Below are positions 3,558-58,035 of a stretch of DNA of 64,000 nt, piece after piece; positions within the stretch are counted from its first letter, which is position 1; each line of letters starts with the position of its first letter. A model generated the notes under the pieces. It did not search any database. It worked only from the letters and a program-made list of their open reading frames with translations, and was not told the origin of the DNA. The stretch covers positions 496,001 to 560,000 of the forward strand of contig NZ_JQJJ01000010.1 in the NCBI RefSeq assembly GCF_000745475.1, read 5' to 3'. The position numbers and the translations under genes are program-made. Source of the DNA: Allobosea sp. UNC402CLCol. GTDB taxonomy: Bacteria > Pseudomonadota > Alphaproteobacteria > Rhizobiales > Beijerinckiaceae.

Positions 3558-3560
3558 CCA

Positions 3561-9710: not shown

Positions 9711-10510
9711 TGGCGATCGTGGCACAGGGGATTTGCGTTTCCCTCGGCGGCCGCTGCGTGCTGACCGCGGCCGACATGGCGCTCCAGCCCGGCGAAGTGC
9801 TCGGCATCGTCGGCCCCAACGGCGCCGGAAAGACCACGCTGCTGCGCGTCCTCGCAGGCCTCCTTAGGCCGGACCAGGGCAGCGTGCGCTACGACGGCTC
9901 GACGGCGCGCGAGCTTGGCCGGCGCGCCTTGGCGCGCCGCGTCGCCTTCCTCGCTCAGGACGGCGCAGCCACCTGGCCGCTCTCCGTCGAAGCCTTGGTC
10001 GGGCTCGGCCGGCTGCCGCATCGGCCGCCCTTCGGCGCCGAGAGCGAGGCGGACCGCGCGGCCGTTGCGAACGCCATGGCGCTTTGCGACATCGCGGCCC
10101 TTGCTGGCCGGACTCTCGGAACTCTGTCCGGCGGCGAAGGCAGGCGTGTCCTGCTGGCGCGCGCGCTCGCGGTCGACGCGGCCTATCTCCTGGCGGACGA
10201 GCCACTCGCGGGGCTCGACCCCGGCCACCAGCTCGAGACGCTAAAGCGGCTCCGAACCGTCGCTGCCGGAGGCGTGGGCGTAGCGGTCGTGCTGCACGAC
10301 CTGTCGCTCGCCGCGCGCTTCTGTGACCGCCTGCTGCTCATCCATCGCGGCCTCCGGATCGCCAATGGGGCACCGGGCGATGTTCTGGATGATGCAGCGC
10401 TGGCCGATGTCTTCGGCGTGAGCGTGCTGCGCGGTCAGCGCGACGGTGTGCCCTTCCTTCTGCCCTGGCAAACGATCGACGCAAGAGGCTCTACCCATGA
10501 CGGATGCTGA
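9710..10510 (+). CDS. btuD: Cobalamin ABC transporter ATPase BtuD
   Basis: A 266-residue ATPase. Walker A GPNGAGKTT lies at about residues 35-43, the signature LSGGEGRR at about 142-149, and Walker B YLLADEPLAGLD at about 160-171, followed by the switch His in VVLHDLSLAARFCDR. Its ATG shares one base with the btuC stop. It drives corrinoid transport through BtuC. The 3' end overlaps the following unknown gene by 14 bases. Confidence 0.92.
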   Translation: MAIVAQGICVSLGGRCVLTAADMALQPGEVLGIVGPNGAGKTTLLRVLAGLLRPDQGSVRYDGSTARELGRRALARRVAFLAQDGAATWPLSVEALVGLGRLPHRPPFGAESEADRAAVANAMALCDIAALAGRTLGTLSGGEGRRVLLARALAVDAAYLLADEPLAGLDPGHQLETLKRLRTVAAGGVGVAVVLHDLSLAARFCDRLLLIHRGLRIANGAPGDVLDDAALADVFGVSVLRGQRDGVPFLLPWQTIDARGSTHDGC

Positions 10511-11516
10511 GACCGTTCGCGCGCTGCTGCGCGAGCACATCCACACTGCTGGGACGCAGTGGAACCTGGGCACGTTCGGCGCCATCGCCGAGTTCATGCG
10601 CGACCCCGGCGATGCCTGCGAGATTGTCGATCGGCCCGATCTTCTCTCCGCGGCGACGGCGCGAGGCAGCATCGGCTTCGGCTCGCTCGCGGGCATCCGC
10701 CCCTTTGCCTCGGAATCCGCGACCGGCGCGAGCTGGAACCACCGCGTCGCGCTTTGCCTGCCGACGGATGCCTGCGCCATGTCCGGCCGGACCGAGCTGA
10801 CTGAACTCGGCCCGGACAAGGACGCTTTGCGCGAGGAGGATCGTGCCGCGATTCTGTTCGACATGGGCCTCGGCACGCTGCAGGCGGACATTTGCATCCG
10901 CACCGCCGATCCCGCGCTGATCGGCGTGCTCAGGGCGGAGGCCGGCCGGCCGCTCTTCGCGCCCGGCAATGGTGCCATGGGCGCAATCCTTGCCGCCGGG
11001 CCGCACCGCGTCTTCATCGCCCGCTTTGGTCGCTGCGAGGTTTATCAGCCGATCCCGCCGGCAGACGGCAAGAGCCCCGAGGGACCGCATACCCATGTCC
11101 TGCCGAAGCTTTTGCGCTCGGGCCGCACCCATGCCGCGACCGAGCCGGTGCCGGATGGGTTTGTGCCCTGTGCTCACCTCATTCCCGCCCACCCGGTGAA
11201 GGATGCCATGGACCGGCCGAGCCCATGGGACGAGCGCGCGCACAAGGAGTTCCAGCGCCTGCTCCAGGCTCATGGCGATGCCGAGCTTGTAAGGGTCAAG
11301 CGAGATCTCCTCGCGGCCATTCGAGGCGGCGACCAGCCGAGTTCCTTCCCGGTGCCGAAGGTGCGAGCTGCTAACCACACTATCAAGGCGACCCTGCGTC
11401 AGCTCGCCGCATCGAGCGAGCGCCGGAAGGATTTGGACAGCTGGTGGGCCGTTTTCGATGCGCGCAAGCTTGAGGACGGCGCGCCTGACGAAAACGACGC
11501 CTATGGGCATGCGTAA
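10497..11516 (+). CDS. Conserved protein of unknown function at the end of the btu operon
   Basis: A 339-residue protein starting at ATG 10497, inside the last 14 bases of btuD. It has no signal peptide or membrane segment and looks soluble and cytoplasmic. Visible features are an alternating hydrophobic region (TLQADICIRTADPALIGVLR), a conserved-looking HTHVLPKLL at about residue 200 and a basic C-terminal part. I think it belongs to an uncharacterised alphaproteobacterial family that I remember as DUF6925, but I am not sure of that name. The deep overlap with btuD implies a role tied to cobalamin uptake or use. Confidence 0.75.
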   Translation: MTDAETVRALLREHIHTAGTQWNLGTFGAIAEFMRDPGDACEIVDRPDLLSAATARGSIGFGSLAGIRPFASESATGASWNHRVALCLPTDACAMSGRTELTELGPDKDALREEDRAAILFDMGLGTLQADICIRTADPALIGVLRAEAGRPLFAPGNGAMGAILAAGPHRVFIARFGRCEVYQPIPPADGKSPEGPHTHVLPKLLRSGRTHAATEPVPDGFVPCAHLIPAHPVKDAMDRPSPWDERAHKEFQRLLQAHGDAELVRVKRDLLAAIRGGDQPSSFPVPKVRAANHTIKATLRQLAASSERRKDLDSWWAVFDARKLEDGAPDENDAYGHA

Positions 11517-11750
11517 GCGTTCCGTGTTTCGTGAGAGCATTGCCTACCGAAGGTGGCTCCAGGCGGTGAGCGACATCTCCGGAACTCCTTGACCGACCAG
11601 GGCTTCTTTAGCGGAGAGCACCTGACTGAGCGGCGATCGGCACAACAGGGCCACATCCAGCTCGGGAAATCTGATCATCCCTTCCGGAAACCTCCTTGGC
11701 GGGGCTTCCTGGGCGTCCTGTAGTCATTGGACGAACAGGACTGATCCGCA

Positions 11751-12257
11751 ATGGCGACGATCCGGAAGCTCCGGGGCAGATGGCAGGCACAGGTGCGACG
11801 GCGCGGCATGGCACCTCGTGCCAAAAGTTTTGATCAGAAGGCTGACGCCGAGAAGTGGGCGCGCTCCCTTGAGAGCGAGCTCGATCGCTGCGGTATGCTG
11901 CCGGATACGCGCGTAGCTGAATCTACGACACTCCGATCGATCCTCGAGCGCTACATGGTCGAGGTCTCGCCTCGGAAACGCAGCGCCCACACCGAGACCT
12001 CTCGGATCAAGGCGCTGCTGCGTCGTACGATCTGTCACCGGACGCTCACGCTGCTCTCGCCCTCAGATCTCGCGACTTATCGCGATGAGCGCCTCAAGAC
12101 CGCGTCGCCGTCGACCATCATCCGCGAACTGAACACGATCTTCGAGAAGGGCTTGAACGTCATAGAGGTCTCGACGATCAGCGGGCACAAGGAGTTGAGA
12201 ATGCTCTCGCGCTACGCCCACCTCCGAGCGACCGATCTAGTTGTTCGCCTGGGATAG
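11751..12257 (+). pseudogene. Tyrosine recombinase (integrase) with internal deletion
   Basis: A 168-codon frame beginning MATIRKLRGRWQAQVRRRGM. The N-terminal arm-type and core-binding domains are present to about residue 127 (TLLSPSDLATYRDERLK, then SPSTIIRELN). The sequence then jumps straight to the C-terminal end of a catalytic domain (FEKGLNVIEVSTISGHKELR, then MLSRYAHLRATDLVVRLG). The catalytic Arg, the beta-sheet Lys and the HxxR box are missing; only the later His and the Tyr nucleophile region remain. Intact relatives are about 330-350 residues, so roughly half is lost by an in-frame deletion. It should be inactive. Confidence 0.85.
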
Positions 12258-12735
12258 GGCCAGACATCGAAGTCCTAGGTTGACGCACTAAGCGCCAACA
12301 GCATGCTGCCAATCTCTCGCTGCCTCATTGCTCAATCCTTGCCAACCAAGGCCGCATAGACTCGCGCATTGGTCGTGGGACCGTGCACCGTCGAATGCGC
12401 AGTATCCCACCTGCTTTGCCGGACTGCCTGCTAACTCCGGTCGGCCACTCCGATAAACGCACATCAGGTCTATCCGGAGTGAAGCATGTCTCGATATCGT
12501 TCTGCTTTTGCTGCCCTCGTCTGTGTTGGGGCGCTGTCGTGTACCGATCCTCATGCGCGCCGAAATAGCCTGGATCCTCAAAAGCGAAGACAAGGTGCTG
12601 CGCAGGGGGGGGGCGCCCAGATCCTCGCGCCGCATACGTCGCAGCCGGGATCGACCTCCTCGCCTGGTCGCAGAACTTTAGCGAGGCTGAGGAGCCCTCA
12701 TGGTCGGCGGTCTCATGACGGCGAGCCACACTCCC
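12258..12735. other. Degenerate intergenic region between integrase remnant and tRNA scar
   Basis: No gene can be supported. Several short frames exist on both strands but none has a recognisable domain, and a run of nine G residues lies near 12605. The stretch probably holds decayed pieces of a former mobile element. Confidence 0.4.
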
Positions 12736-12773
12736 GGCGCGCCCGACACGATTCGAACGTGTGACCTTTGCCT
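12736..12773 (-). repeat. Inverted 38-bp copy of the tRNA-Arg(CCG) 3' part (att-like scar)
   Basis: These 38 bases are an exact reverse complement of 12887-12924, the tRNA-Arg part from the anticodon stem 3' strand through the T-arm to the CC of the 3' end. Identity stops just before the final A. Integrases commonly use this part of tRNA genes as att core, so this is probably an attachment-site remnant left by integration followed by inversion or deletion. Confidence 0.8.
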
Positions 12774-12848
12774 CTTCGGGCATTTGTTCCTTCGCAAAAT
12801 CCCGCATTGCCGAAGCAGCGGGGATCGGCTATCCAGCCTTCACGGTTT

Positions 12849-12925
12849 GCGCCCGTAGCTCAGCTGGATAGAGCGTTGCCCTCCGAAGGCAAAGGTCACA
12901 CGTTCGAATCGTGTCGGGCGCGCCA
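12849..12925 (+). tRNA. tRNA-Arg (anticodon CCG)
   Basis: A complete 77-base cloverleaf. The acceptor stem GCGCCCG pairs with CGGGCGC, the D-arm is GCTC...GAGC, the anticodon stem TTGCC/GGCAA encloses loop CTCCGAA with anticodon CCG, and the T-arm ACACG-TTCGAAT-CGTGT is regular. CCA is encoded. A run of seven T (12926-12932) follows directly and may terminate transcription. Confidence 0.97.
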
Positions 12926-13116
12926 TTTTTTTAATGAAATCAATGCACTGGGCGAATGCGCGCCCCTTTCGAGCTTCGGTAGCCTCTACCCTCGGAAGCG
13001 ATGCGTTGCGGTTTATGCGTGACGAAAAGGGGCTTCGGACGCGTTTCTGAGGGCTTCGAGGGTTCTCTGTTGTCATTCTTTGGCGAAAGCATTTCGGCTT
13101 GAGACAGCGAGTCCAT

Positions 13117-13144
13117 CGAGCGTTGCCCACGTGGGCAACGCTCG
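13117..13144. repeat. Perfect 28-bp palindrome
   Basis: CGAGCGTTGCCCAC is followed directly by its exact reverse complement GTGGGCAACGCTCG, giving 14-bp arms with no spacer. It lies in gene-free DNA about 190 bases after tRNA-Arg. It could be a protein binding site, a recombination relic or part of a repeat. Confidence 0.8.
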
Positions 13145-13271
13145 TCGCAATTGGCGCGCACCAATTCCTGACAGGTGGACCGCAGGAGCCCTTGTCCGCA
13201 GGTGGCCACAACGGTCCTTGCGACAGTCCGCTTTCGGAAGTCTAACTTACATTGCCAGGCAGGGTGGAACT

Positions 13272-13307
13272 GGCCCTTAGTTGACGTCTGGAAGGTCTGC
13301 TTCCGGG
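13272..13307 (+). repeat. Dispersed degenerate repeat, copy 1
   Basis: It begins GGCCCTTAGTTGACGTCTGG and ends around GGTCTGCTTCCGG. It is similar to 13343-13379 and 44453-44489; the shared pattern is GGCCCyTwGyTGAC followed about ten bases later by yGCTTyyGG. Confidence 0.5.
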
Positions 13308-13342
13308 TAGCGCTATGTGGCCAGTCGTCGAGCGCCGAAATC

Positions 13343-13379
13343 GGCCCTTTGCTGACATCGGGAATGCCCGCTTTTGGAC
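13343..13379 (+). repeat. Dispersed degenerate repeat, copy 2
   Basis: It begins GGCCCTTTGCTGACATCGGG and continues to ATGCCCGCTTTTGGAC. It lies 36 bases after copy 1 in the same orientation and matches it at most positions. Confidence 0.5.
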
Positions 13380-13525
13380 AGTCAGATTAGTCCTTTTGCT
13401 GAGCTTGGCGGAGTATGACAGTGCCTGGCGCGTTCCGGTTGCATTATTGCGAGCGCCGGCACTGTTTTACGCAGCGTCATGGGGTATGTTTTATCGTTTC
13501 GTCGCGTCCGTGACGCGAACATGAA

Positions 13526-44827: not shown

Positions 44828-45931
44828 TCATGGAAAAAAGCGCGCCGGCCTAAAGCTCGAAAGTTCCGGTCGCGTCCTTCCATTAACGATCTCGTCGGCG
44901 GCCATCGCCCCTAAGACCGGCGACAGCGTCGCGCCGCTATGGGTGACCATGACGTAGTAGTTCTCGACACCCGGCACCGGGCCGATGGCCGATAGACCGT
45001 CCTGTGGAATCGGCCGCACGGTGACGCGCGCGGCTTCCGGCTTGAGCGGGGCGAGGCCGGGCAGAATGCGCAGCAGGCGGTCGACGAGATCCTGCGCCTG
45101 CTCCATGCCGGGATTGACGCCGATCTCCGGCGTCACCGTGGCGTCGGCTGCGCCCCAGTGCAGCATCAGGCGCCCGGCTCCATCCGGCCGGAAGTCGCAG
45201 ATGGGGCTGGCGATGACGCGCTGGATGCTGGCCGGAACGGGCGGCGTGAAGACGAGGAAACCGATCGTGGGTGCCAATGGCACGTTCGGCGCTGCGGCTC
45301 CGACCGTGTCGTTGGACCAGCGCCCGGTGCAGTTGACGACGATGTCGGCATGGAAGGTCTCGCCGCTCTCGCTGCGCACGCCCTTCGCCCGGCCTCCCTC
45401 GACGATCAGGCCGGCCACCCTGGTCTGCGTCCGCAATGTCGCGCCATGGCGCCGCGCCGCACTCATCATCGCATGGGCATAGACCACCGGGTCGAGCCAG
45501 CCATCGTTTGGGTACCAGGCGATCGGCGCGTCGCCGACGGCCTCGGGCGCGATGTCCGGCTCCAGCTCCAGCAACTGCTTGCGGTCGATCCATTCGGCCG
45601 CATAGTCCCAGCTCCGCAGCCGCTCGACCTTGGCCTTCAGCGCGGCTTGCTCGGATTCCGCCCGCCACTCGATGCGCCCGCCGCCGTGCCACCAGGGCGT
45701 CGCGCCGAACTCGTCCTTCAGCGCCGCATGGGCCCGCATGCCGGCCACGTTGAGGTCGTGATAGGCACGCGGCGTCTTGTTCGAGGAGTTCGTCCAGGCG
45801 AAGGAGATGCCGGATGTCCCGCCGCCGACGCGTGTCGCCTCGAGCACGGTGACCTTGGCGCCGGCGCGCGCCAGCCGGTAGGCGACCGACGTCCCGAGGA
45901 CGCCGGCGCCGACGACAATGATCTCAGTCAT
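44828..45931 (-). CDS. FAD-dependent amino acid oxidase/dehydrogenase (DAO family)
   Basis: A 367-residue DAO-family flavoprotein. The FAD site is TEIIVVGAGVLGTSVAYRLA, followed by the acidic strand end VTVLEA and GGGTSGISFAWTNSSNKTPR. The C-terminal part has VTVRPIPQDGLSAIGPVPGV and YYVMVTHSGATLSPVLGAMA. It would oxidise a secondary or primary amine of an amino acid-like substrate to imine/keto acid. It is a close paralogue of the gene at 48934 and the last gene of the peptide-type importer operon. A related group forms subunits of octopine/nopaline oxidases. Confidence 0.9.
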   Translation of the reverse strand: MTEIIVVGAGVLGTSVAYRLARAGAKVTVLEATRVGGGTSGISFAWTNSSNKTPRAYHDLNVAGMRAHAALKDEFGATPWWHGGGRIEWRAESEQAALKAKVERLRSWDYAAEWIDRKQLLELEPDIAPEAVGDAPIAWYPNDGWLDPVVYAHAMMSAARRHGATLRTQTRVAGLIVEGGRAKGVRSESGETFHADIVVNCTGRWSNDTVGAAAPNVPLAPTIGFLVFTPPVPASIQRVIASPICDFRPDGAGRLMLHWGAADATVTPEIGVNPGMEQAQDLVDRLLRILPGLAPLKPEAARVTVRPIPQDGLSAIGPVPGVENYYVMVTHSGATLSPVLGAMAADEIVNGRTRPELSSFRPARFFP

Positions 45932-45970: not shown

Positions 45971-47059
45971 TTACGCCGCGCGCTTCGCAGCCCAGCCGTC
46001 GCGCGCCAGCGATTTCAGTTCGGCGAGCGACATCGCTTCGAGGCCGATCTCGCCGAGCAGATCGTTTTCCGCCGCGAAATCCCGGCCATAGAGCGCCGAG
46101 AAGATGTCGATGCCGGCCTGGTGCAGCGTCGCGGGCCGGCCGGCGAGCTTGCCGAGCAGCACTGTCGGATGCAGGCCGAAGGGGGCGTCCTCCAGGACAT
46201 AGCGCGTGTCGATACTGCTCGGTCCGTTGCCGCCATTGCCGCGGGCCGCGAGCTGGCGCGCCATCTCGCCGACCGGTCCGGGCTCGACATGGAAGGAGAG
46301 ATTGTAGTGCTCGCGGATGGTGCGGACCTTGTAGCCGGCGGCTTCCGCGATGGCGAGACGCTCGGCGTCGAGGGCTTCGAGCAGGCGGCCGACGGAATCG
46401 GTGTTGTTTTCGTTCTGCCCCCAGGTCTCGCCATGCTCCATGCGGGTGAAGTTGCACAGCGCGATGCCGAGATGGTTCTGCGGGTTGAGATTGGACAGCG
46501 AAATCGCCAGCGCGTCGTCGCGCTGGACGAAGCGATCGCCGAACAGCTGCTGGCAGATTGTCAGCCCCCGCTTGGAGGCCGAGACGGGAATCGTCGCGAT
46601 GTCGACCTTCGAGCGGACGGTCGAGACGTTGACGCTGGCATCTCCGGTCCTGCGCCCGGCGGTCACCGTCGTGCCCCAGACGACGACCGGCACGTCGAGC
46701 CCTCGCTCGGCGATCTTGCGGGCGATATAGAGGCCGCTGAACGAGGTGTGGGAGCTGATGATGACGACCTGCCCGACCGCGAGATGCGGGGCGGCGGCGT
46801 CCATCGCCGCGCGGTGGCCATTGGCCGGCAGGGCGAAGAGCACCGCCCCGGCCCCGGCGACCGCCTCGGCGGCGCTCGCGGCGACCGCGACCTTGAAGCT
46901 GCCGGTCAGGCTGCCGGTCGCCGTCAGAGGCTCGCCCTTGGCGAGGCTCCGGCCGCTCTTGCCGGATGGCGACCACAGCACCGGCTCATGGCCGAGGGAG
47001 GAAAGAAGGGCGGCATTGCCATAGGCAATCGAGCCCGCACCGAGCACAGCGACACGCAT
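45971..47059 (-). CDS. NAD/NADP octopine-nopaline dehydrogenase family protein
   Basis: A 362-residue enzyme. The N-terminal Rossmann domain starts MRVAVLGAGSIAYGNAALLS and includes ADGAGAVLFALPANGH-like residues and VVIISSHTSFSGLYIARK. The C-terminal helical octopine-DH domain has LCNFTRMEHGETWGQNENNT, with the expected catalytic His, and REHYNLSF. Family members interconvert opine-type N-(carboxyalkyl) amino acids with amino acid plus keto acid. With two DAO-family oxidases and a peptide-type importer in the same operon it probably takes part in opine-like compound breakdown. Confidence 0.85.
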   Translation of the reverse strand: MRVAVLGAGSIAYGNAALLSSLGHEPVLWSPSGKSGRSLAKGEPLTATGSLTGSFKVAVAASAAEAVAGAGAVLFALPANGHRAAMDAAAPHLAVGQVVIISSHTSFSGLYIARKIAERGLDVPVVVWGTTVTAGRRTGDASVNVSTVRSKVDIATIPVSASKRGLTICQQLFGDRFVQRDDALAISLSNLNPQNHLGIALCNFTRMEHGETWGQNENNTDSVGRLLEALDAERLAIAEAAGYKVRTIREHYNLSFHVEPGPVGEMARQLAARGNGGNGPSSIDTRYVLEDAPFGLHPTVLLGKLAGRPATLHQAGIDIFSALYGRDFAAENDLLGEIGLEAMSLAELKSLARDGWAAKRAA

Positions 47060-47143: not shown

Positions 47144-48886
47144 TCAGTAGGTGTAACCGGCCTTTTCCATGTACTGCTTCGCCAGGTTGAAGTCGTAGGC
47201 GATCGGCTTCAGCAGGTCTTGGTCGTAGAATTCCGAGGTGAAGGGCATCGGCACCGTGCCGGGCTTGCCGAAGCCGGCAACGACGTTCTTGATGATCTGC
47301 TCACGCGGGATCATGTGGCTCATCGCCTTGCGGACATACATCGCCGCTTCCGCGGCGCGGCTCGGATCCTTCTTGCCGAGCGGCGTCTCGACGCCGGTGC
47401 CGAAGACCGGATGGTTCAGGTTGAGGCAGGTCTGCATCCACTTGAACGAGTCGAAGCGATTGACCTTGCCCCATGACGGATCGACGGTGCTGAGCAGGCC
47501 GCCGACATCGTACATCGGGTCATGCGCGTCGATGGCGCCGGATTTGATGGCGCTGAGCAAGGCATCGGCGCCCTCGATATTGACGACATAGAAGGTCTTG
47601 ACGTTGCCGTCGGTCTTTCGCCAGTAGTTCTCGTTCTTGCTGTATTTGTAGGCCTTGCGCGAGGGGTCGAAGCCCTGCGGGATCCAGGGCCCGGTGCCGA
47701 CGCCGCCCTTCGCCGCGAAGACCTTGCCGTCCGAGGTCTTGACCGGGAAGGTGCCGAGCCAGGTCGAGATGACGTGGCCGCGCAATTCCTCCGGCTTGAT
47801 GTCCTTGTAGGCATGCTTCGGCATGATCGCGATGACCGGCAGCAGGAAGTCGTAGAACAACATGTTCGGTTGCGGCAGCGTCACCGTGATCTCGTGCGTG
47901 CCGGTGACCTTGTAGGCGTCGCGCGAACCCATCACCGCTGACAGCGTCGCCTGGAACAGGCTTGCATAGGTCTTGTCGATGATCGTGTCCCAGGTGAACT
48001 TGACGTCCTCGGCGGTGAACTCCTCGCCGGAATGCCATTTCACGCCCTTGCGCAGGCTGATGACCCAGCTCTTGCCATCCTCCGAGCCTTTGACCGTTTC
48101 AGCCAGCGCCGGGACAAGCTTCTTGTTGGCCCAGCTGTCATATTCCATCAGCGCGTTGTAGACCGGGCCGAAGATGTTGGATTCATTATAGCCGCTGCCA
48201 TACATCGGGATGAGCTGGCTCGGCGGCTGCCAGGAGGCGAAGGTCGCGGTGACGTCACCGGTCGCGCCCTCGATCGACCAGTCCTCCGGCCGCGGATAGA
48301 AGACCGGGTTATAGGTCGTCGATTCCATCCCCTTCAGCTTCGGATTGGTGATGATCACCTCTTCCGGATAGAAGACGATGTGCAGCGGCTCGATCTCGTA
48401 CCAGCGCTTCACGAAGGCGGCCATCGCCGTCTTGCGGTCCTCGGGCGTGATCGCGCGTGAATATGTCTCGATGGCCGCGTCGATCTGCTGGTCGGCGACG
48501 CGATAGTAGTTTTGCCCGTTCGGAGGCACGTTCTTGCTGTGGAACAGCGCCTCGGGGCTTGGCGCCAGCCCGTTATAGTAGATCCGCTCCGAATACATGT
48601 CGAAGCCACCCTCGACATGGGTCTTGCCGCTGTCGTTGGCGCGCCGCGCGATGACCACGGAAGGCGGTTGGTAGCTCGCATTGACGTCGATGCCGAGCCG
48701 CGCGAACTGCTTGCCGATCAGATCGGTCCAGATCATGCGCGACTGCAGGTTGTTGAAGATCATCAGATAGAGCTTGAAGTGGGGCGGCTTCGCCAGAGCG
48801 GGCTCGGGCAGGCCGCCGGCTGCGAGCGCGGCGGCCCCCGCCCCGGTCCATTTCAGAACGTCACGTCGCGTCGATTTCTCAGACAT
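47144..48886 (-). CDS. ABC substrate-binding protein, family 5, apparently circularly permuted
   Basis: A 580-residue peptide-type binding protein with a twin-arginine signal (STRRDVLKWTGAGAAALAAG). Parts are in an unusual order. Residues about 34-203 look like the usual C-terminal lobe (HFKLYLMIFNNLQSR, FARLGIDVNASYQPP, then RKTAMAAFVKRWYEIEPLHI and VFYPEEVIITNPKLKGM). Residues about 211-580 look like the usual N-terminal and middle part (KLVPALAETVKGSEDGKSW, GVKWHSGEEFTAEDVKFTWD, later YVRKAMSHMIPREQIIKNVV). It ends at FNLAKQYMEKAGYTY, where normal relatives continue into the C-lobe. Both parts are complete, so the fold may be kept. A stem-loop follows the gene. Confidence 0.88.
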   Translation of the reverse strand: MSEKSTRRDVLKWTGAGAAALAAGGLPEPALAKPPHFKLYLMIFNNLQSRMIWTDLIGKQFARLGIDVNASYQPPSVVIARRANDSGKTHVEGGFDMYSERIYYNGLAPSPEALFHSKNVPPNGQNYYRVADQQIDAAIETYSRAITPEDRKTAMAAFVKRWYEIEPLHIVFYPEEVIITNPKLKGMESTTYNPVFYPRPEDWSIEGATGDVTATFASWQPPSQLIPMYGSGYNESNIFGPVYNALMEYDSWANKKLVPALAETVKGSEDGKSWVISLRKGVKWHSGEEFTAEDVKFTWDTIIDKTYASLFQATLSAVMGSRDAYKVTGTHEITVTLPQPNMLFYDFLLPVIAIMPKHAYKDIKPEELRGHVISTWLGTFPVKTSDGKVFAAKGGVGTGPWIPQGFDPSRKAYKYSKNENYWRKTDGNVKTFYVVNIEGADALLSAIKSGAIDAHDPMYDVGGLLSTVDPSWGKVNRFDSFKWMQTCLNLNHPVFGTGVETPLGKKDPSRAAEAAMYVRKAMSHMIPREQIIKNVVAGFGKPGTVPMPFTSEFYDQDLLKPIAYDFNLAKQYMEKAGYTY

Positions 48887-48933: not shown

Positions 48934-50046
48934 TCAGGCCTGGAAGCGCGCCGGGCGGAACGCCTCCAGCTCCGGCCGCTGGCGGCCATGCAGCACCTCG
49001 TCTGCCACGGCCTGGCCGAGGAAGGGCGAGAGCGTGACGCCGCTATGGGTGACGACGACGTAGTAGCCGTCGACCCCGCGTGCCGGCCCCACCGTCGACA
49101 GCCCGTCCGCCGGAATCGGCCGCATCGTGGTGCGCACGGCCTCGGCCTTGACGCCCTTCAACCCCGGCAGGATCTCGGCGGCGCTGGCGATGGCGATCCG
49201 CGCCTCCTCGCAATCCGGCGTGCGGCTTTCCAGTGCGGCGAAGCGGTCGTCGAGCGAATCCTTGCGCACCATCAGCCGCCCGGCACCGTCCGGCCGGACA
49301 TCGACATCGGGGGCGTGGAAAGGTCGGCGCAATGCGACGCCGACCGGCGGCGTGAACACTAGGAAGCCGATCGTCGGCGCGAGCGGCACGTTCGGCGCGG
49401 TCTGGCTCACCGTCTCGTTCGACCAGCGGCCGGTGCAGTTGATCACGAGATCGGCCTCGTGGAGCGCGCCGCTTTCGTCCCGCGCGCCGACGACGCGGCC
49501 ATTGCGCGTTTCCAGCCCGGTGATCCTGACGCCGGTCTTGAGCGCGGCACCGTAGCGCTGGCGCGCGGCGCGCAGCATGGTGCCGGCATAGAGCACAGGA
49601 TCGACCCAGCCCTCCTCCGGGCAGAACACGACCTGAGCGTCGTCCGGAACCGCATCGAGGGCGATTTCCGGCTCGAGCTCGCCGAGGCGCTTCTTGTCGA
49701 TGAACTCGGCCGCGTAGCCCCAGTCGCGCAGCCGCTTGACCTTCTCGGCCTGCGCAGCGACCTCCGCCGGATCGACGCGCCATTCCAGGCTGCCGCTCTG
49801 GTGGAACCAGGGCGTGGCGCCGAATTCCTCCTTCAGCGCCGCATGGGCCCGCATGCCGGCGACGTTGAGGTCGTGATAGGGGCGCGGCGTCTTGTTGTTG
49901 GAGTTGGTCCAGGCGAAGCTGACGCCGGAGGTGCCGCCGCCGATACGGTCGGCCTCCAGCACGGTGACCTTCGCCCCGCCCTGCGCCACCCGGTAGGCGA
50001 CCGAGCTGCCGACGATTCCGGCTCCGACGACGATGACGTTCATCAT
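48934..50046 (-). CDS. FAD-dependent amino acid oxidase/dehydrogenase (DAO family)
   Basis: A 370-residue DAO-family enzyme and close paralogue of the gene at 44828. The start is ATG 50046 (or 50043) with AGGAC upstream; it begins MMNVIVVGAGIVGSSVAYRV. Shared motifs are GGGTSGVSFAWTNSNNKTPR, HDLNVAGMRAHAALKEEFGA, VPLAPTIGFLVFTPPVG and TMRPIPADGLSTVGPARGV with YYVVVTHSGVTLSPFLGQA. It lies between the ATPase pair and the permuted binding protein gene. Amine oxidation of the imported compound is likely. Confidence 0.9.
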   Translation of the reverse strand: MMNVIVVGAGIVGSSVAYRVAQGGAKVTVLEADRIGGGTSGVSFAWTNSNNKTPRPYHDLNVAGMRAHAALKEEFGATPWFHQSGSLEWRVDPAEVAAQAEKVKRLRDWGYAAEFIDKKRLGELEPEIALDAVPDDAQVVFCPEEGWVDPVLYAGTMLRAARQRYGAALKTGVRITGLETRNGRVVGARDESGALHEADLVINCTGRWSNETVSQTAPNVPLAPTIGFLVFTPPVGVALRRPFHAPDVDVRPDGAGRLMVRKDSLDDRFAALESRTPDCEEARIAIASAAEILPGLKGVKAEAVRTTMRPIPADGLSTVGPARGVDGYYVVVTHSGVTLSPFLGQAVADEVLHGRQRPELEAFRPARFQA

Positions 50047-50071
50047 GGCATGTCCTGTGATCTGGCCCGCA

Positions 50072-51106
50072 TCAGCGCGGGTTGTGGCAAGCGAAGGCAT
50101 GGGCGCCGTCCGGGGCGGCGAGCGGCGGAACCTGTCGGGAGCAGATCGGCAGCGCCGCCGGGCAGCGGGTGTGGAAGACGCAGCCGGAAGGCCGCTTCAC
50201 CACGCTCGGGATCTCGCCGCTGATCGCGTCGCGCGGCTTCTGCCGGGCCGGATCGGGCACCGGAATCGCGGAGATGAGGGCCGCGGTATAATGATGGCCC
50301 GGCCGGGCGAAGATCTCGTCGACCTCGCCGATCTCGACGAGATTGCCGAGATACATCACCGCGATGCGGTTGCTGAGGAAGCGCACCGAGCTCAGATCGT
50401 GCGAGATGTAGAGATAGGAGAGCTTCAGCTCCTCCTGCAATTCGGCGAGCAAGTTGAGGATCTGGGCGCGCACGGAGACGTCGAGCGACGACACCGGCTC
50501 GTCGCAGATCAGCAGGCGCGGCTCGACGGCGAGTGCGCGTGCGATGCCGATGCGCTGGCGCTGGCCGCCGGAGAATTCATGCGGGTAGCGGTCGGCATGC
50601 TCGGCCGGCAGCCCGACGCGCTCCAGCAGCGCCTCGACCGCGCCGTCCCATTGCGCCGGGGGAACGAGGCCGTGAACCCTGAGCGGCTCCGACAGGATCT
50701 GCCGGACGCTCCAGCGCGGGTTGAGCGAGAGATAGGGATCCTGAAAGACGTATTGCATCTGCCGGCGCAGCGCGAGCACCTCCGGCCGGCGGTCGCGCGA
50801 GAAGGTCGCGCAGACATCGGTATCGCCGAGCCTGATCGTGCCGGAGCTCGGCGGGACGAGATGTAGGATCGAGCGAGCGGCGGTGGTCTTGCCGCAGCCG
50901 CTCTCGCCGACGATGCTCAGCGTCTCGCCCTCGTCCAGGCTGAAGCTGATGTCGTTGACGGCGCGGATCTCGCCCGTGACCTTCTGGCGGAACAGGCCGC
51001 GCCGATTCAGCGGATAGCTCTTCACCAGCCCGTCGACGCTGAGCAGCGGCTTACGGCTCGTACGCTGGCGGGGCTCGGGCACGGGAGCGATCGCGGTCTC
51101 AGCCAT
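50072..51106 (-). CDS. Oligopeptide-type ABC transporter ATPase (OppF/DppF-like)
   Basis: A 344-residue ATPase. Walker A is GESGCGKTT, the Q-loop region MQYVFQDPYLSLNPRW, the signature FSGGQRQRIGIARAL, Walker B LLICDEPVSSLDVSVRAQIL, and the switch His is in LYISHDLSSV. The C-terminal oligopeptide extension carries a Cys motif, with CVFHTRCPAALPICS. It overlaps the partner ATPase by eight bases and forms the second motor of this importer. Confidence 0.94.
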   Translation of the reverse strand: MAETAIAPVPEPRQRTSRKPLLSVDGLVKSYPLNRRGLFRQKVTGEIRAVNDISFSLDEGETLSIVGESGCGKTTAARSILHLVPPSSGTIRLGDTDVCATFSRDRRPEVLALRRQMQYVFQDPYLSLNPRWSVRQILSEPLRVHGLVPPAQWDGAVEALLERVGLPAEHADRYPHEFSGGQRQRIGIARALAVEPRLLICDEPVSSLDVSVRAQILNLLAELQEELKLSYLYISHDLSSVRFLSNRIAVMYLGNLVEIGEVDEIFARPGHHYTAALISAIPVPDPARQKPRDAISGEIPSVVKRPSGCVFHTRCPAALPICSRQVPPLAAPDGAHAFACHNPR

Positions 51107-52181
51107 GGCCGGGCACTCCGGCGCTGCCGCGCTTCAGGCAATGGACGACGCGGCCGGGCTCGATTGCGGCGGCCTGCGGCACGAGCCGCGTGCAGTCCGG
51201 CGCAGCCTCTGGACAACGCCCGGCGAAACGACAGCCGCCGCCGAGCGGCTGGCCCGGCGTCGCCGCGAGCCCGACCGTCGGCAGGCGCTCGCGCCTCCCT
51301 TCGGCATCGACGGCGTAGCGCTTGTCGATCCGGGGCGTCGAGGCGAGCAGGGCTTGCGTATAGGGGTGCGAAGGCCGGGCGAAGACGGCATGCTTGTCGC
51401 CGGTCTCGCAGACCTGGCCGGCATACATCACGGTGATCCGGTCGGCTATGCGCGCCACCACGCCCATATCGTGGGTGACGAAGATCATCGACATGCCGAG
51501 CCGCTGCTTCAGCTCCTCGAGCAGGTCGAGGATCTGCGCCTGGATGGTGACGTCGAGCGCCGTGGTCGGCTCGTCGGCAAGCACCAGCGCCGGATTGCAC
51601 AGCAGCGCCCGCGCGATGCAGACCCGCTGCTTCATGCCCCCGCTCATCTCATGCGGGTATTGCGACAGGCGCGGGCCGGGATCGGTGATGCCGACGAGAC
51701 GGAACAGCTCCTCGACGCGCTGCAGTGCAGCCGCGCGCGGCAGCTTCTCATGAACCTTCAGGATCTCGGCAAGCTGGGCGCCGACGGTCAGCAGCGGATT
51801 GAGCGAATAGCCGGGGTTCTGGAAGATCATGGTGAGGCGTCGCCCGCGCAGCTTCTGCATCTCGCGCTGCGATTTCGCCGCGATGTCCTCGCCCTCGAAC
51901 AGGATGCGCCCGCCCGCGATCCGCGCTGGCGGCGGCAGGAGGTTGAGGATCGCCAGGCTCGACAGCGTCTTGCCGCTGCCGGATTCGCCGACGATGCCCA
52001 TCGTCTCGCCGGCACGCACTTGGTAGCTGACATCCTCGACGACCCGGATCGGCGCGTTCCAGGGCGGAAACTGGATATGTAGATTCTCTACCGAGACCAG
52101 CACGGGCGCCTGCGAGGCTGCAGCCTCGGGCTGTCTGGGCAAGGCGGCAGCGGCCTGCGTTTCGGCGGCGAGGCTCATCAT
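51099..52181 (-). CDS. Oligopeptide-type ABC transporter ATPase (OppD/DppD-like)
   Basis: A 360-residue ATPase starting at ATG 52181, one base overlapping the permease stop. Walker A is GESGSGKTLS, the Q-loop lies in LTMIFQNPGYSLNPLLTVGA, the signature MSGGMKQRVCIARAL, Walker B LVLADEPTTALDVTIQAQIL, and the switch His is in FVTHDMGVV. The C-terminal Cys region is CRFAGRCPEAAPDC. A longer reading from 52883 belongs to a wrong frame over the permease gene. Confidence 0.94.
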   Translation of the reverse strand: MMSLAAETQAAAALPRQPEAAASQAPVLVSVENLHIQFPPWNAPIRVVEDVSYQVRAGETMGIVGESGSGKTLSSLAILNLLPPPARIAGGRILFEGEDIAAKSQREMQKLRGRRLTMIFQNPGYSLNPLLTVGAQLAEILKVHEKLPRAAALQRVEELFRLVGITDPGPRLSQYPHEMSGGMKQRVCIARALLCNPALVLADEPTTALDVTIQAQILDLLEELKQRLGMSMIFVTHDMGVVARIADRITVMYAGQVCETGDKHAVFARPSHPYTQALLASTPRIDKRYAVDAEGRRERLPTVGLAATPGQPLGGGCRFAGRCPEAAPDCTRLVPQAAAIEPGRVVHCLKRGSAGVPGHG

Positions 52182-53134
52182 CAGACTTTGGCCCGCGGGT
52201 TGAAGGCGTCGGTCAGCCCATCCGCCAGGAGATTGAAGCCGAGCACGGTGATGAAGATCGCGAGACCGGGGCTCAGCGAAGCCCAGGGCGCGACCTTGAG
52301 CGCCTCGTAGTTGAAGTAGAGGAGCTGGCCCCAGCTCACCGCCGCCGGATCGCCGAAGCCGAGGAAGCCGATCATCGCCTCCGCCAGCACGGCGCCGCCG
52401 ATGCCGAGCGCCACGATGACGACGAGCGAGGGCAGGGCGTTCGGCAGGATGTGGCGGAACAGGATGTCGCCCGAGGTCGCGCCGATGCAGCGTGCTGCCT
52501 CGACGAATTCCTGGTTCTTGAGCCGCAGGAACTCGGCCCGCGTCATCCGCGCGATCGGCGCCCAGGAGAAGACGCCGATCAGCAGGATGATCACGCCGAG
52601 ATTGAGATAGGGCACGCTTTCGAAGGGCGTGTTGACGATGGCGACGCCGAGCAACCGCACCACGGCGAGGATGACGACGAACATCGGGATGACCAGGAAG
52701 AAGTCGGTGAAGCGCATCAGCACCTCGTCGGTGGTTCCGCCGCGATAGCCGGCAAAGCCTCCGACCAGCACGCCGATCACGGAGGCGATCGACATCGCGC
52801 CGAGCCCGACGGCGAGCGCCGTCGGCGCGCCGTAGATCAGGCGGCTGAGCACGTCGTAGCCCATGCGGTCGGTGCCGAGCCAATGGGTCCAGCTCGGCGG
52901 CGCCTTGGCGCCGGGGTCGAGCATCGGGCTCTGGTCATGCGCATCGAAGGGCGCGAGGAAGGGGCCGATCACCGCTGTCGCGACGACGAGCATGACCAGC
53001 ACGAGGCCGAGCATGCCGGTGCGGCTCCGCGTGAAGCGCTGCCAACCTTGCCGCCAGATGCCCTTGGCGGGCTTGGGCAGCGGCTTTGGCCGTGAGGTGT
53101 GGCTCGCGATCGTCTGGTCGGTCACGCCGCTCAC
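52181..53134 (-). CDS. Peptide-type ABC transporter permease (DppC-like)
   Basis: A 317-residue DppC-type permease. After a cytoplasmic N-terminus and first membrane segment (GMLGLVLVMLVVATAVIGPF) come HWLGTDRMGYDVLSRLIYGA, the coupling stretch QEFVEAARCIGATSGDILFR, and MIGFLGFGDPAAVSWGQLLY. It overlaps the DppB-like gene by four bases. It pairs with that permease in the opine-like importer. Confidence 0.93.
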   Translation of the reverse strand: MSGVTDQTIASHTSRPKPLPKPAKGIWRQGWQRFTRSRTGMLGLVLVMLVVATAVIGPFLAPFDAHDQSPMLDPGAKAPPSWTHWLGTDRMGYDVLSRLIYGAPTALAVGLGAMSIASVIGVLVGGFAGYRGGTTDEVLMRFTDFFLVIPMFVVILAVVRLLGVAIVNTPFESVPYLNLGVIILLIGVFSWAPIARMTRAEFLRLKNQEFVEAARCIGATSGDILFRHILPNALPSLVVIVALGIGGAVLAEAMIGFLGFGDPAAVSWGQLLYFNYEALKVAPWASLSPGLAIFITVLGFNLLADGLTDAFNPRAKV

Positions 53135-54099
53135 TCCAGGCTGATGCGGGGATCGATGAGGACGTAGATCACGTCCGTCAGCAGGGTCGTGCAGATCAGC
53201 ATGAAGGCGATGACCGCACTCGCGCCCATGATGACGGGGTAGTCGAGCTGGTGGATCGCAGCGACATAGAGGGAGCCCAGCCCCGGCCAGGTGAAGACGG
53301 ATTCCGTCACCGGCGCGGTGCCGAGCATCAGGCCGATCAGCAGCCCGAGATAGGTCAGCATCGGGATGAAGGCGGCGCGCAGCGCGTGAACGTAAATGAC
53401 GCGCCGCTCGGGGATGCCGCTGGCGCGCATCGCCGCGATGAAGTCGCTCTTCAGCACGTCGACCATGTTCGAGCGCATCAGCAGCGTCAGCGTCGCGGTG
53501 TTGAAGAAGGTCAGCATCGCGACGGGCAGCACCATGTGCCAGAGCGCGTCGAGCGTCGGGCTGCCGCCGAGCGGGTTGCGGGTCGAATAGGCGCCGTAGC
53601 TTGGCAGCCAGTCGAGCGTGTAGGAGAAGACGAAGATCAGCAGGATGCCGAGGAAGAAGGCCGGCAGGGACTGGCCGAGCAGCGCCGTGCCCATCACCGC
53701 GAAATCCGAGCGCGAATGCTGGCGGCGGGCGGCCGTGACGCCGAAGAGGATCGCGATTGCCAGCGCGATCAGGATGGCGGGGACCTGAATCTTGAGGGTC
53801 TGCCAGCCCCAGGTCAGGATGAGCGAACCGACCGGCTGGTTATAGACGATGCTGGTGCCGAAATCGAGGTGGAGCAGCCGCCCGAGCCAGAGCAGGTAGC
53901 GGGTGAGCGGCGGCTGATCGAGCCCGTAATAGGACTTCATGCGCTCGATCACCTCGCCGGTCATGCCGGGCGTCTCCGCCATCATCAGCTCGATCGGATT
54001 GCCGATCGCGTTGATCAGGAAGAAGATCGCTGCGCTGACGCCGAGCATCAGGATGATCGCAAAGATCAGCCTCCTCGTCAGAAAGACGAAAACCTGCAT
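53131..54099 (-). CDS. Peptide-type ABC transporter permease (DppB-like)
   Basis: A 322-residue DppB-type permease and first gene of the eight-gene operon reading down to 44828. Features are FVFLTRRLIFAIILMLGVSA, the periplasmic loop, the coupling stretch KSDFIAAMRASGIPERRVIY, FTWPGLGSLYVAAIHQLDYP, and the C-terminus TDVIYVLIDPRISLE. About six membrane segments. The promoter should lie in the 219 bases upstream. Confidence 0.93.
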   Translation of the reverse strand: MQVFVFLTRRLIFAIILMLGVSAAIFFLINAIGNPIELMMAETPGMTGEVIERMKSYYGLDQPPLTRYLLWLGRLLHLDFGTSIVYNQPVGSLILTWGWQTLKIQVPAILIALAIAILFGVTAARRQHSRSDFAVMGTALLGQSLPAFFLGILLIFVFSYTLDWLPSYGAYSTRNPLGGSPTLDALWHMVLPVAMLTFFNTATLTLLMRSNMVDVLKSDFIAAMRASGIPERRVIYVHALRAAFIPMLTYLGLLIGLMLGTAPVTESVFTWPGLGSLYVAAIHQLDYPVIMGASAVIAFMLICTTLLTDVIYVLIDPRISLE

Positions 54100-54318: not shown

Positions 54319-55224
54319 TCACGAATCCGCGCTGTAGCCGAGCCGTTCCAGCTCGTCCTCGATATCCCGGATCAGTGCGTCGGCCAGCGAGGAGCCCGTC
54401 AGGGTGTTCGGACGCAGATGCCAGACCGGAGAGAAGATTTCCGGCGCGAAGGGCTTCGCGACGAGGCCGCGTCCGATGAAGCTGTGCGCGTTGAGCTCGT
54501 CGACGAGCGCGATCCCGGCGCCATTGGCGACCAGGGCGCTGGCGACGTTGGCCATTGGCGCGTCGATGAACATGCGTGGCAGTACGCCCGCCTGCTCGAA
54601 GACCTTCTCGACGAAGATGCGACGATCCGGCGATCCGATCGAGACGAAGTTCTCGCCGTCGAGATCCTCGGGCCGGATCGTCTTCAGCCCCGCGAGGCGA
54701 TGGCCTTCGGGCACGGCACAGACATTGGGGATGCGCGCGATCAGGCGGCACACGACATTGGGATGCGGGGTGAAATGTTCGGTGATCCCGACATCGATCT
54801 GCCCGGCGATGACCCATTCGATGATGCGGTCGGAGCTGCGCGAATGCAGCTTGACCGAGGTCTTCTCGTGCTGCCGGCAAAAGCGCGTCAGCAAAGGCGG
54901 GATGAGCGTCCCTGCCAGCATCGGCATGACGCCGAGATTGAGCCGGCCGAACTGCAGCTCGCGAATGTCCTTCGTCATCCGCTCGAGACGTTCGACGCTT
55001 TCCCAGGTCCGCTGAACCTCCGCGAAATACAGCTCGCCGTCCCGTGTCGGCTTGAGGCGTCCCTTCATGCGCTGGAACAGGATGATGCCGGTGCTGCGCT
55101 CGAGCTGGTTCAGCATCTTGCTGGCGGCCGGCTGCGAGACCGACATCATCTCGGCCGCCTGGGTGAGCGTACCGAGATGCATGATGTGGCGGAAGAGCTC
55201 GACATGCCTGAGATTCACTGTCAT
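54319..55224 (-). CDS. LysR-family transcriptional regulator
   Basis: A 301-residue LysR regulator. ATG 55224 follows GAGGGGA and starts MTVNLRHVELFRHIMHLGTL; the HTH continues with SVSQPAASKMLNQLERSTGI. The effector domain begins at about residue 93 (RLNLGVMPMLAGTLIPPLL). A longer start at 55329 adds 35 low-complexity residues and is rejected. It lies upstream of, and on the same strand as, the importer operon that begins at 54099, and is the best candidate for its regulator. Confidence 0.9.
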   Translation of the reverse strand: MTVNLRHVELFRHIMHLGTLTQAAEMMSVSQPAASKMLNQLERSTGIILFQRMKGRLKPTRDGELYFAEVQRTWESVERLERMTKDIRELQFGRLNLGVMPMLAGTLIPPLLTRFCRQHEKTSVKLHSRSSDRIIEWVIAGQIDVGITEHFTPHPNVVCRLIARIPNVCAVPEGHRLAGLKTIRPEDLDGENFVSIGSPDRRIFVEKVFEQAGVLPRMFIDAPMANVASALVANGAGIALVDELNAHSFIGRGLVAKPFAPEIFSPVWHLRPNTLTGSSLADALIRDIEDELERLGYSADS

Positions 55225-55374
55225 CCGTCCCCTCGCAGACATGCGACCGCTGCGTCCTGTGCCCGTGGCTGCGCAGTTCGCGGAGCGATACTCCCCCAAT
55301 GGCGTCCTGCGGGGAAGCGCCTGAGACATTGAGGGAAGGCCCCGGGCAGAGAGCTGGGTCGGCCGCGGTCAGAC

Positions 55375-56502: not shown

Positions 56503-58035
56503 ATGCGCAGCCTTCGTCATTCCTGCACCGTGGCGGCGTTGGCCACGGGCCTCTCTTTCCTCGCCGCCCAGGCCTTCGCGCAGCCCGCCGGGGTCCTGCG
56601 CGTCGCCGTGGGTGCCGATCCGGCGACCTTCGACCCGGCCTTCAACGATTTGCCGGTCGGCAATGCGGTCGATCTCGCGGTGCTGGAGGGGCTCTTCCGG
56701 CTCGATCCGCAGAACAATGTCCAGAAGAGCCTCGCGACGGACTCCTCCTTCTCGCCGGACGGCAAGGTCTTCTCCGTCAAGATCAGGGCGGGGAAAACCT
56801 TCAGCAACGGTGACCCGCTGAACGCGGAGGCGGTGGCCGCGAGCTTCAACCGCATGCTCGACGAAAAGACCGGCTCGATCTATCGCGGGCTCTACGCTTC
56901 GCTCGGCACGGTGAAGGCGGTCGGCGAGGATACGGTCGAGTTCCACATGGCCGAGCCCAACGGCCACGTGCTGATGCTGCTCGCCAGCACCGCGGCCAGC
57001 ATCGTCAACGTCAAGGCGCTCAAGGAGATGGGCGCTGAGTACGGCCGCAAGCCTGTCGGCTCGGGCCCCTATATGGTCGAGCGCTATGTCGGCGGCGAAG
57101 GCTTCCGCCTCGTGCCCAATCCGAAATATGCCGGCGATTATCCGGCCACGCTGAAGGCGATCGAGTTCACCGTGGTGCCGGAGGACGGCTCGCGCATGGC
57201 GCTGATGGAGACCGGCGCCGCCGACATCGTCGAGCGCGTACCGCCCGAATCGATCGCCGCGATCAATGCGCTCAAGAGCGCCAAGGTCGTCACCCCGCCC
57301 AGCATGTTCTCGATCAACATGGAGATGGTGCTGCGCGGCCCGCTGGCCGATCCGCGGGTGCGCCAGGCGCTGAACCTCGCCGTCGATCGCGAGGGCATCG
57401 CCAAGGGTGTCCTCGGCGGGCTCGGCACGCCCTCGGTCGGCATGGTCGGCCCCGGCACGCAGGACGAATTGCGCAAGACCTTCCCGCCGATCCCGTTCGA
57501 TCCGGCCGGCGCCAAAAAGCTGCTCGCGGAAGCAGGCTACAAGCCCGGCCAGCTCGCGCTCAGCTTCACCTGCCCGACCGGGCGCTACATCAAGGACGTG
57601 CAGGTCTGCCAGGCCCTGGCCGGCTCCTTCGAGGATGTCGGCATCAAGGCGACGCCGCTCGTCGTCGATCGCGGAACCTGGACCAAGGTGGTCGGCATGG
57701 AGCCGGCCCAGCGCACCGACAATATGGGCATGGTCGGGCGCGCCACGGCGGGCATGGACTACACGCTCTACCGCCTGTTCTACACCGGCGTCGGCGCCAA
57801 CCGCACCGGCTATTCCAATCCGCGCGTCGACGCCCTGCTGAAGGAAGGCCGGGCCACGACCGATCCGGCAAAGCAGAAGGCGATCTATGGCGAGGTCCAG
57901 GAGATCGTCTGGAAGGATCAGCCCTTCCTCTTCCTCTGGTACCAAACCCAGGCGATCGGCGTCGCCAACCGCGTCCAGGGCTTTGCCGTCCAGCCCAACG
58001 AGACGCTGGTCTTCGACAAGGTGACCCTGAACTAG
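56503..58035 (+). CDS. ABC transporter substrate-binding protein, family 5 (peptide type)
   Basis: A 510-residue binding protein with signal peptide SCTVAALATGLSFLAAQAFA. The order of parts is normal: LRVAVGADPATFDPAFNDLP, FSPDGKVFSVKIRAGKTFSN, GDPLNAEAVAASFNRML, VRQALNLAVDREGIAKGVL, AKKLLAEAGYKPGQLALSFT and a C-terminal DQPFLFLWYQTQAIGVANRV. ATG 56503 follows GGGGAA. It leads the second peptide-type importer operon. The ligand is unknown; an N-acylated or N-methylated amino compound would fit the enzymes downstream. Confidence 0.93.
   Translation: MRSLRHSCTVAALATGLSFLAAQAFAQPAGVLRVAVGADPATFDPAFNDLPVGNAVDLAVLEGLFRLDPQNNVQKSLATDSSFSPDGKVFSVKIRAGKTFSNGDPLNAEAVAASFNRMLDEKTGSIYRGLYASLGTVKAVGEDTVEFHMAEPNGHVLMLLASTAASIVNVKALKEMGAEYGRKPVGSGPYMVERYVGGEGFRLVPNPKYAGDYPATLKAIEFTVVPEDGSRMALMETGAADIVERVPPESIAAINALKSAKVVTPPSMFSINMEMVLRGPLADPRVRQALNLAVDREGIAKGVLGGLGTPSVGMVGPGTQDELRKTFPPIPFDPAGAKKLLAEAGYKPGQLALSFTCPTGRYIKDVQVCQALAGSFEDVGIKATPLVVDRGTWTKVVGMEPAQRTDNMGMVGRATAGMDYTLYRLFYTGVGANRTGYSNPRVDALLKEGRATTDPAKQKAIYGEVQEIVWKDQPFLFLWYQTQAIGVANRVQGFAVQPNETLVFDKVTLN

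Follow-up and report, generated by a model that had tools for sequence, protein, structure and literature searches.

Does the gene at 47144-48886 of the window (the whole stretch of DNA analysed here, 64 000 nucleotides) encode a working family 5 substrate-binding protein (SBP) whose parts stand in circularly permuted order? A preliminary description had read it as a single odd gene for a peptide-binding protein with permuted lobes. We consider it very likely that the product is a working family 5 SBP with a permuted fold, cut in domain III, probably of one origin and acting as the receptor of a DppBCDF-type importer.

The last part of the protein comes first

The open reading frame stood as described, and its strand was corrected to minus. 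It starts with ATG, and its 580-residue product (P0001) was assigned from the frame, profile matches and a structural model. A Tat-type signal peptide occupies residues ~1-32 (RRDVLKW; 48791-48886, minus strand); the Pfam model TAT_signal matched residues 6-24 (E 7e-05) and the NCBIfam model TIGR01409 residues 6-32, both above their cut-offs, and the protein is predicted to be exported. The canonical last part (end of domain III and last strands) comes first, at residues 34-203 (48278-48787, minus strand), and is followed by the canonical first part (domains I and II and the beginning of domain III) at residues 213-580 (47147-48250, minus strand), as placed by hhalign and by the models canC and canN, respectively.

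Against the Pfam profile SBP_bac_5 (PF00496) the protein scored 184.9 bits (gathering cut-off 32.4), with residues 256-579 matching profile positions 1 to ~279-281 of 368. The chain ends there, at AGYTY, where canonical family 5 proteins continue. Among the 56 SBP_bac_5 matches listed for the same genome, the 55 others reach at least profile position 331, while this one stops at ~281. canC, a model of the canonical last part built from 39 canonical proteins, scored 43.3 bits on residues 34-203, compared with a maximum of 6.8 bits in 2000 shuffles (1442 scored) and a best score of 0.3 on the 39 canonical first parts (26 scored). Its match covered residues 56-192 and that of canN residues 213-579 (178.3 bits), the last part thus lying ahead of the first. 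On residues 411-580 canC gave no score, so no second C-lobe was seen. These results bear out the proposal that residues 34-203 carry the features of a canonical end and residues ~211-580 those of a canonical first part stopping at AGYTY; a full C-lobe within 211-580 was absent.

The protein was then compared with an alignment of 39 canonical proteins (524 positions; hhalign query numbers count from residue 34). In native order, query 181-546 aligned to template 35-352 (score 350.3, E 3e-49), and a second, separate alignment joined query 20-156 to template 372-500 (score 96.9, probability 98.2%, E 4.5e-14). Rotation at residue 211 turned these into a single alignment of 458 columns with a score of 439.5, covering template positions 37-500 of 524; the two parts add up to full length, as had been supposed, and all domain parts of a family 5/cluster C protein are present after rotation. 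A scan of rotation points rose from the native 350.3 to a plateau at residues 188-224 with a peak of 440.1 at residue 212, and the rotated alignment had a gap of ~2 residues where the native ends meet. The plateau and the gap indicate that the canonical ends meet at about residues 193-212 and that the chain was opened right after the AGY helix. With the limits of canC and canN, this places the join of canonical C-terminus to canonical N-terminus at residues ~193-212 (48251-48310, minus strand), a correction of the boundary given before.

The same shift was seen against individual proteins. We built a profile, A1, from the 47144-48886 protein and 15 orthologues (16 rows, 576 positions, numbering close to that of the residues). 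Its positions 251-340 and 513-575 matched the first part of the canonical protein at 56503 and its positions 124-186 the end; for the canonical protein at 956, positions 239-356, 391-451 and 513-575 matched the first part and 98-185 the end. The blocks are thus cyclically shifted against both canonical family 5 proteins of the window, including the one at 56503 that had been put forward for this comparison. A broader permuted profile, A3 (29 rows), paired residues 18-348 of Bacillus subtilis AppA (1xoc) with profile 212-543 (i-E 4.7e-72) and AppA 358-506 with profile 42-197 (i-E 2.4e-19), each part being significant alone. In each of the best 60 of the 116 solved sequences matching A3, it was the start of the chain that the best stretch aligned to the second part of the profile, and hence no solved permuted member was seen among them.

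By these matches the protein departs from the canonical linear order and is a permuted variant, no ordinary family 5 member. That it is a full-length family 5 (SBP_bac_5, cluster C) binding protein in circularly permuted form is well supported by sequence, profile rotation, predicted fold and relatives. Compared with the three Bosea orthologues (L011, L012 and L013), dN/dS is ~0.06-0.17 in both parts of the gene; both are under purifying selection.

Predicted fold and position of the cut

An AlphaFold model from the 16 orthologues alone was poor (pLDDT 42.3, pTM 0.38), the alignment being too shallow. A second input also contained 18 canonical fragments, with first and last parts in rows of their own, and raised the values to pLDDT 79.0 and pTM 0.82; since the fragments were placed by homology, this model supports the permutation without being fully independent of it. 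Residues 1-31, 77-107 and 191-197 had pLDDT below 50. In a Foldseek search, the best 50 of 163 matches at E ≤0.001 were peptide-, nickel-, heme-, glutathione-, chitin-, opine-, sialic-acid- and similar binding proteins, and most of these titles also head the family 5 sequence matches. TM-scores reached 0.47 by query length over only ~250-410 aligned columns because Foldseek keeps sequence order, and the C-lobe placement is not shown by Foldseek itself. The matches of the fragment-aided model include proteins with a three-domain bilobed fold and a two-strand hinge, an architecture that the permuted protein may share. Neither of the two outcomes that the preliminary description named as refuting arose, the one on the fold being judged from the model's scores and secondary structure.

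From the secondary structure of the model and the domain limits of EppA (I 27-256, IIa 257-302, III 303-530, IIb 531-563; PMC7312458), we infer that the hinge is formed by strands around 474-487 and 168-180. Lobe 1 would then be continuous (~181-473) and lobe 2 would consist of ~35-175 plus ~490-580, with the cut inside domain III (lobe 2), ~90 residues past the first hinge strand. Of the claim that lobes stand in permuted order, the permutation has been upheld by rotation, fold and relatives; the wording about lobes has not, as the cut would fall inside lobe 2 and leave lobe 1 continuous. A short link would connect the canonical N- and C-termini, which both belong to lobe 1, and new ends would have formed inside domain III after a conserved helix ending in AGY, so that the chain would begin and end in lobe 2 with lobe 1 as its uninterrupted middle.

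Residues ~81-94 form an extra lobe 2 stretch, RRANDSGKTHVEGG, with invariant Arg81, Arg82 and Lys88, a trait of the subfamily relative to most of the wider permuted relatives.

Relatives with the same order and cut

Relatives are encoded by 23 of 41 pattern matches in the genome collection. Fifteen of them (L011-L025) are full-length or nearly so and 59-95% identical to the 47144-48886 protein, and eight match the second part alone. Their organisms include Bosea, Microvirga, several Acetobacteraceae-type genera, Reyranella and one Desulfobacterales MAG (L019). Seven of 67 genomes of the same genus carry the permuted gene, the window's genome included. Searches of the class (E 1e-80, 385 genomes) and of the order (E 1e-25, 297 genomes), each with 3 or 4 candidates scored per genome, found it in one genome, the window's own. 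A phylum search with the broad profile was a weak census, with four candidates scored per genome and canonical first parts filling the list, and among the matches listed it gave no new permuted member outside the window. Three scans of viral contigs for relatives of the permuted protein yielded none.

Plasmids widened the set. tblastn with the 47144-48886 protein matched 384 plasmid records, 11 of which had a single match spanning at least 80% of the query; haloarchaea among these 11 matched at 21-25% identity as single collinear pieces. With relatives from Nitratireductor (L071) and Haladaptatus (L070) as queries, 55 of 2811 and 42 of 1396 records passed the coverage of at least 80%, and order was checked for 13 permuted plasmid proteins. 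The L071 query also matched 44 of 289 class genomes at E 1e-30. Ten places in ten genomes (L075-L084) cover most of the query and all ten are permuted, and 20 more fetched loci (L085-L104) match its second part alone and all 20 are canonical. Among the places outside the fetched loci, whose order was unsorted, one match (G044 contig C3) spans 114 to 530.

When the proteins holding both parts were sorted (n=100; 30 other ORFs of the same loci, with neither part, were dropped), 39 were permuted with the same cut and 61 canonical; because permuted queries and the window's own genome supplied the set, 39 of 100 describes a chosen, non-random sample and is no frequency. The 39 comprise the 16 members of A1, the 13 plasmid loci and the 10 class genomes. 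The search for homologues of the same order was thus successful, and the gene is not the single oddity it had seemed. Permuted proteins end at most ~45 residues past the AGY (or AGF, AGW, SGF) motif. Seven of the 39 are haloarchaeal (L070, L072, L105, L106, L109, L110 and L111), and an LAGC- or LSGC-like lipobox lies near the N-terminus in 7/7 aligned haloarchaeal members. With same-cut relatives in bacteria and salt-loving archaea, the permuted order represents a conserved reshuffling of a widespread fold, no error.

In the Desulfobacterales MAG, from another phylum, the permuted SBP is 62% identical and lies on the chromosome, flanked on one side by a DAO gene and on the other by an ABC set of spermidine type with a TOBE_2 ATPase and two permeases; an IS200-like transposase lies nearby, and we read this as transfer or mis-binning.

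Operon and candidate ligand

On the minus strand, the genes run in the order LysR, permease B, permease C, ATPase D, ATPase F, DAO, permuted SBP, octopine-dehydrogenase-like, second DAO. A LysR-type regulator (54319-55329; Pfam) stands upstream of the operon, as do its relatives in L011-L013 and L015. It is followed by a DppB/OppB-type permease (53131-54099; Pfam BPD_transp_1), a DppC/OppC-type permease (52181-53134; BPD_transp_1 and OppC_N), a DppD/OppD-type ATPase (51099-52082, start approximate; ABC_tran and oligo_HPY) and a DppF/OppF-type ATPase (50072-51106; ABC_tran and oligo_HPY). An FAD-dependent oxidoreductase of the DAO family (48934-50100; Pfam DAO) precedes the permuted SBP, and an octopine/nopaline dehydrogenase-like protein (45971-47059; Pfam Octopine_DH, E 1.6e-30) and a second FAD-dependent oxidoreductase of the DAO family (44828-45931; Pfam DAO) follow it. 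From LysR to the second DAO, no SBP besides the permuted one was seen. Judged by gene order and domain content, the permease and ATPase genes of a DppBCDF-type importer share an operon with the permuted SBP, which would act as the ordinary Venus-flytrap receptor of this importer.

In 12 of the 15 orthologous loci, B-C-D-F precedes the SBP on one strand; in L011-L013 (Bosea) a DAO gene separates F from the SBP. The exceptions are L014, where the four genes are divergent, L020, which ends at the contig end, and L019, which has none of the permeases. Most operons observed pair the permuted protein with an ordinary DppBCDF-type importer.

An octopine-dehydrogenase-like gene lies near the permuted SBP in 5 of the 15 loci and in 6/6 further same-genus loci. 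Downstream of the SBP, both ORFs that were scanned (L016 and L021) encode a luciferase-like monooxygenase, and annotations beside permuted SBPs name a nitrilotriacetate monooxygenase (L073) and an LLM flavin-dependent oxidoreductase (L074). These neighbours suggest that the permuted SBP imports a secondary-amine carboxylate, opine-like or aminopolycarboxylate, which the neighbouring oxidases and dehydrogenase would break down; the operon would then offer an uptake route for such compounds. The import role is the surer part of this reading, and the ligand class is put forward tentatively, at somewhat less than an even chance. Arg50, Arg81, Arg82, Lys88 and Arg101 are invariant in the chain-first part of A1, some of them within the low-confidence stretch 77-107; the set would suit a polyanionic ligand, like the basic cleft of EppA. 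The protein could instead be a family 5 permutant with another ligand, for example a peptide, and M28 or M20 peptidase, hydantoinase or creatininase genes do adjoin other permuted relatives. The DAO and Octopine_DH neighbours at 47144-48886 and the NTA-monooxygenase-like neighbours in closer relatives make this less likely, as does the dipeptide-binding equivalog NF043070, on which the protein scored 43.5 bits, far from the curated cut-off of 1005.

Other permuted SBP operons (L072, L105-L108 and L111) have creatininase, M20 or M28 peptidase, hydantoinase/oxoprolinase and RidA-type genes nearby, which hint at nitrogen-containing amide or cyclic ligands. In L111 (Halomarina sp. BND7 plasmid, 9622-10899), a transposase gene separates the permease from the ATPase genes of the permuted SBP's transporter. 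In L071 (Nitratireductor plasmid, 9541-13514), the genes beside the permuted SBP for the second permease (1674 bases) and the ATPase (2304 bases) exceed the usual length and may encode fused subunits.

Origin of the permuted order

For a tree of the 100 proteins (469 columns, quick IQ-TREE, the canonical rows being a small sample), first and last parts were aligned independently, which kept their order from contributing any signal. The 39 permuted rows formed one side of a branch, corresponding to one change (SH-aLRT 93). FastTree support for the permuted group was 0.87 with both parts and 0.57 with the first part alone. In the tree of the last part only, one long-branched canonical row (L027) fell inside the permuted group, giving two changes. 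The best reading of these trees is a single origin, the permuted order having most likely arisen once and then been inherited or passed among Alphaproteobacteria and haloarchaea. The simplest route would be a tandem duplication of a binding-protein gene in frame, after which the outer halves were lost. At L128 (G786 contig C1), two canonical family 5 SBP genes (991-2583 and 2632-4233, minus strand) lie in the same frame 48 bases apart; the pair reads last part, stop, first part, and thus represents raw material for such a duplication, not the event itself. Among the places listed in the phylum search, this locus was the one besides the window's own that matched most of the profile, and it was rejected as a permuted candidate since it holds two tandem canonical genes with a stop codon between them.

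The last part of one SBP gene might also have been fused to the first part of a different, neighbouring SBP gene. Tandem same-frame canonical genes such as those at L128 do occur, the authors of the TpMglB-2 study raised a similar fusion for their protein (PMC4990184), and the nearest canonical rows are not the same in the first-part and last-part trees. The permuted rows nevertheless gather in both part trees (39 alone in one, 39 plus one canonical row in the other). As neither tree names a clear donor, a fusion of paralogues keeps some weight, although we regard such a chimera as unlikely and prefer duplication within one gene.

Very improbable is a truncated binding protein behind an unrelated N-terminal domain. 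A single-sequence search of solved structures gave nothing significant for residues 35-204 (best E 0.076), the chain-first part, for which profiles were used instead; yet this best match, 4oet 408-477 of 494, itself lies near the canonical family 5 end, and the last-part alignment at E 4.5e-14 and the margin of canC over its shuffles refute an unrelated domain. A sequencing or assembly artefact or a decayed gene, for which no evidence was found at 47144-48886, has a practically negligible chance in view of the 15 orthologues in other public genomes, the seven same-genus carriers, the low dN/dS and the kept operon.

Comparison with known binding proteins

DppA, AppA, NikA and EppA, all of cluster C, share the same profile over nearly their whole length once the permuted protein is rotated, and belong to the same kind of importer operon. 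EppA binds aminopolycarboxylates, and EDTA-degrading Chelativorans is described as having an NTA-type monooxygenase, an iminodiacetate oxidase and EppA as family 5 SBP (PMC7312458). EppA was weighed as a permuted relative because of the NTA-monooxygenase neighbours of permuted relatives, and was set aside: the main text of the paper describes the canonical domain order and contains no mention of permutation (PMC7312458). Domain IIb is C-terminal in EppA, whereas the permuted chain would start and end inside domain III.

A closer likeness in kind is TpMglB-2 (Tp0684), reported as a circularly permuted SBP that occurs naturally, is conserved and retains binding of its ligand, glucose (PMC4990184). 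As described there, it belongs to cluster B, with the permuted strands in the N lobe and a fourth cross-over made, whereas the cut here would lie in lobe 2 of a cluster C fold. The 47144-48886 protein matches SBP_bac_5 in Pfam and lacks the cluster B type I fold, and no TpMglB-2-like sugar-type cluster B title occurred among the best 60 of 116 PDB matches or the best 50 of 163 Foldseek matches. Glycine-betaine-binding proteins are presumably another kind of SBP, outside cluster C. For these, a circular permutation related through structure comparison has been reported by CPSARST (PMC2395249).

Permuted SBPs are therefore already known, and among the open-access papers listed our search found no report of one in family 5 or cluster C, so that the case appears new there. 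We think it likely that these proteins form an undescribed single-origin clade of permuted cluster C SBPs in Alphaproteobacteria and haloarchaea, with the chain ends moved from lobe 1 to lobe 2. If so, the usual description of lobe 2 as inserted in lobe 1 would be reversed, and the membrane anchor of the haloarchaeal members, with their lipobox, would shift too. The records examined annotate the permuted proteins just as ABC transporter substrate-binding protein, and with this plain annotation and a Pfam match covering only ~1-279 of 368, the permuted order is easily overlooked. A natural permutant with canonical sisters and an intact operon would allow folding, lobe closure and permease docking to be compared across two topologies.

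Within the window, a second, canonical and divergent family 5 system adjoins the permuted operon from 56503-58035 onward. A close relative of its SBP (sister rows, support 100) also lies beside the permuted SBP in L073 and L074.
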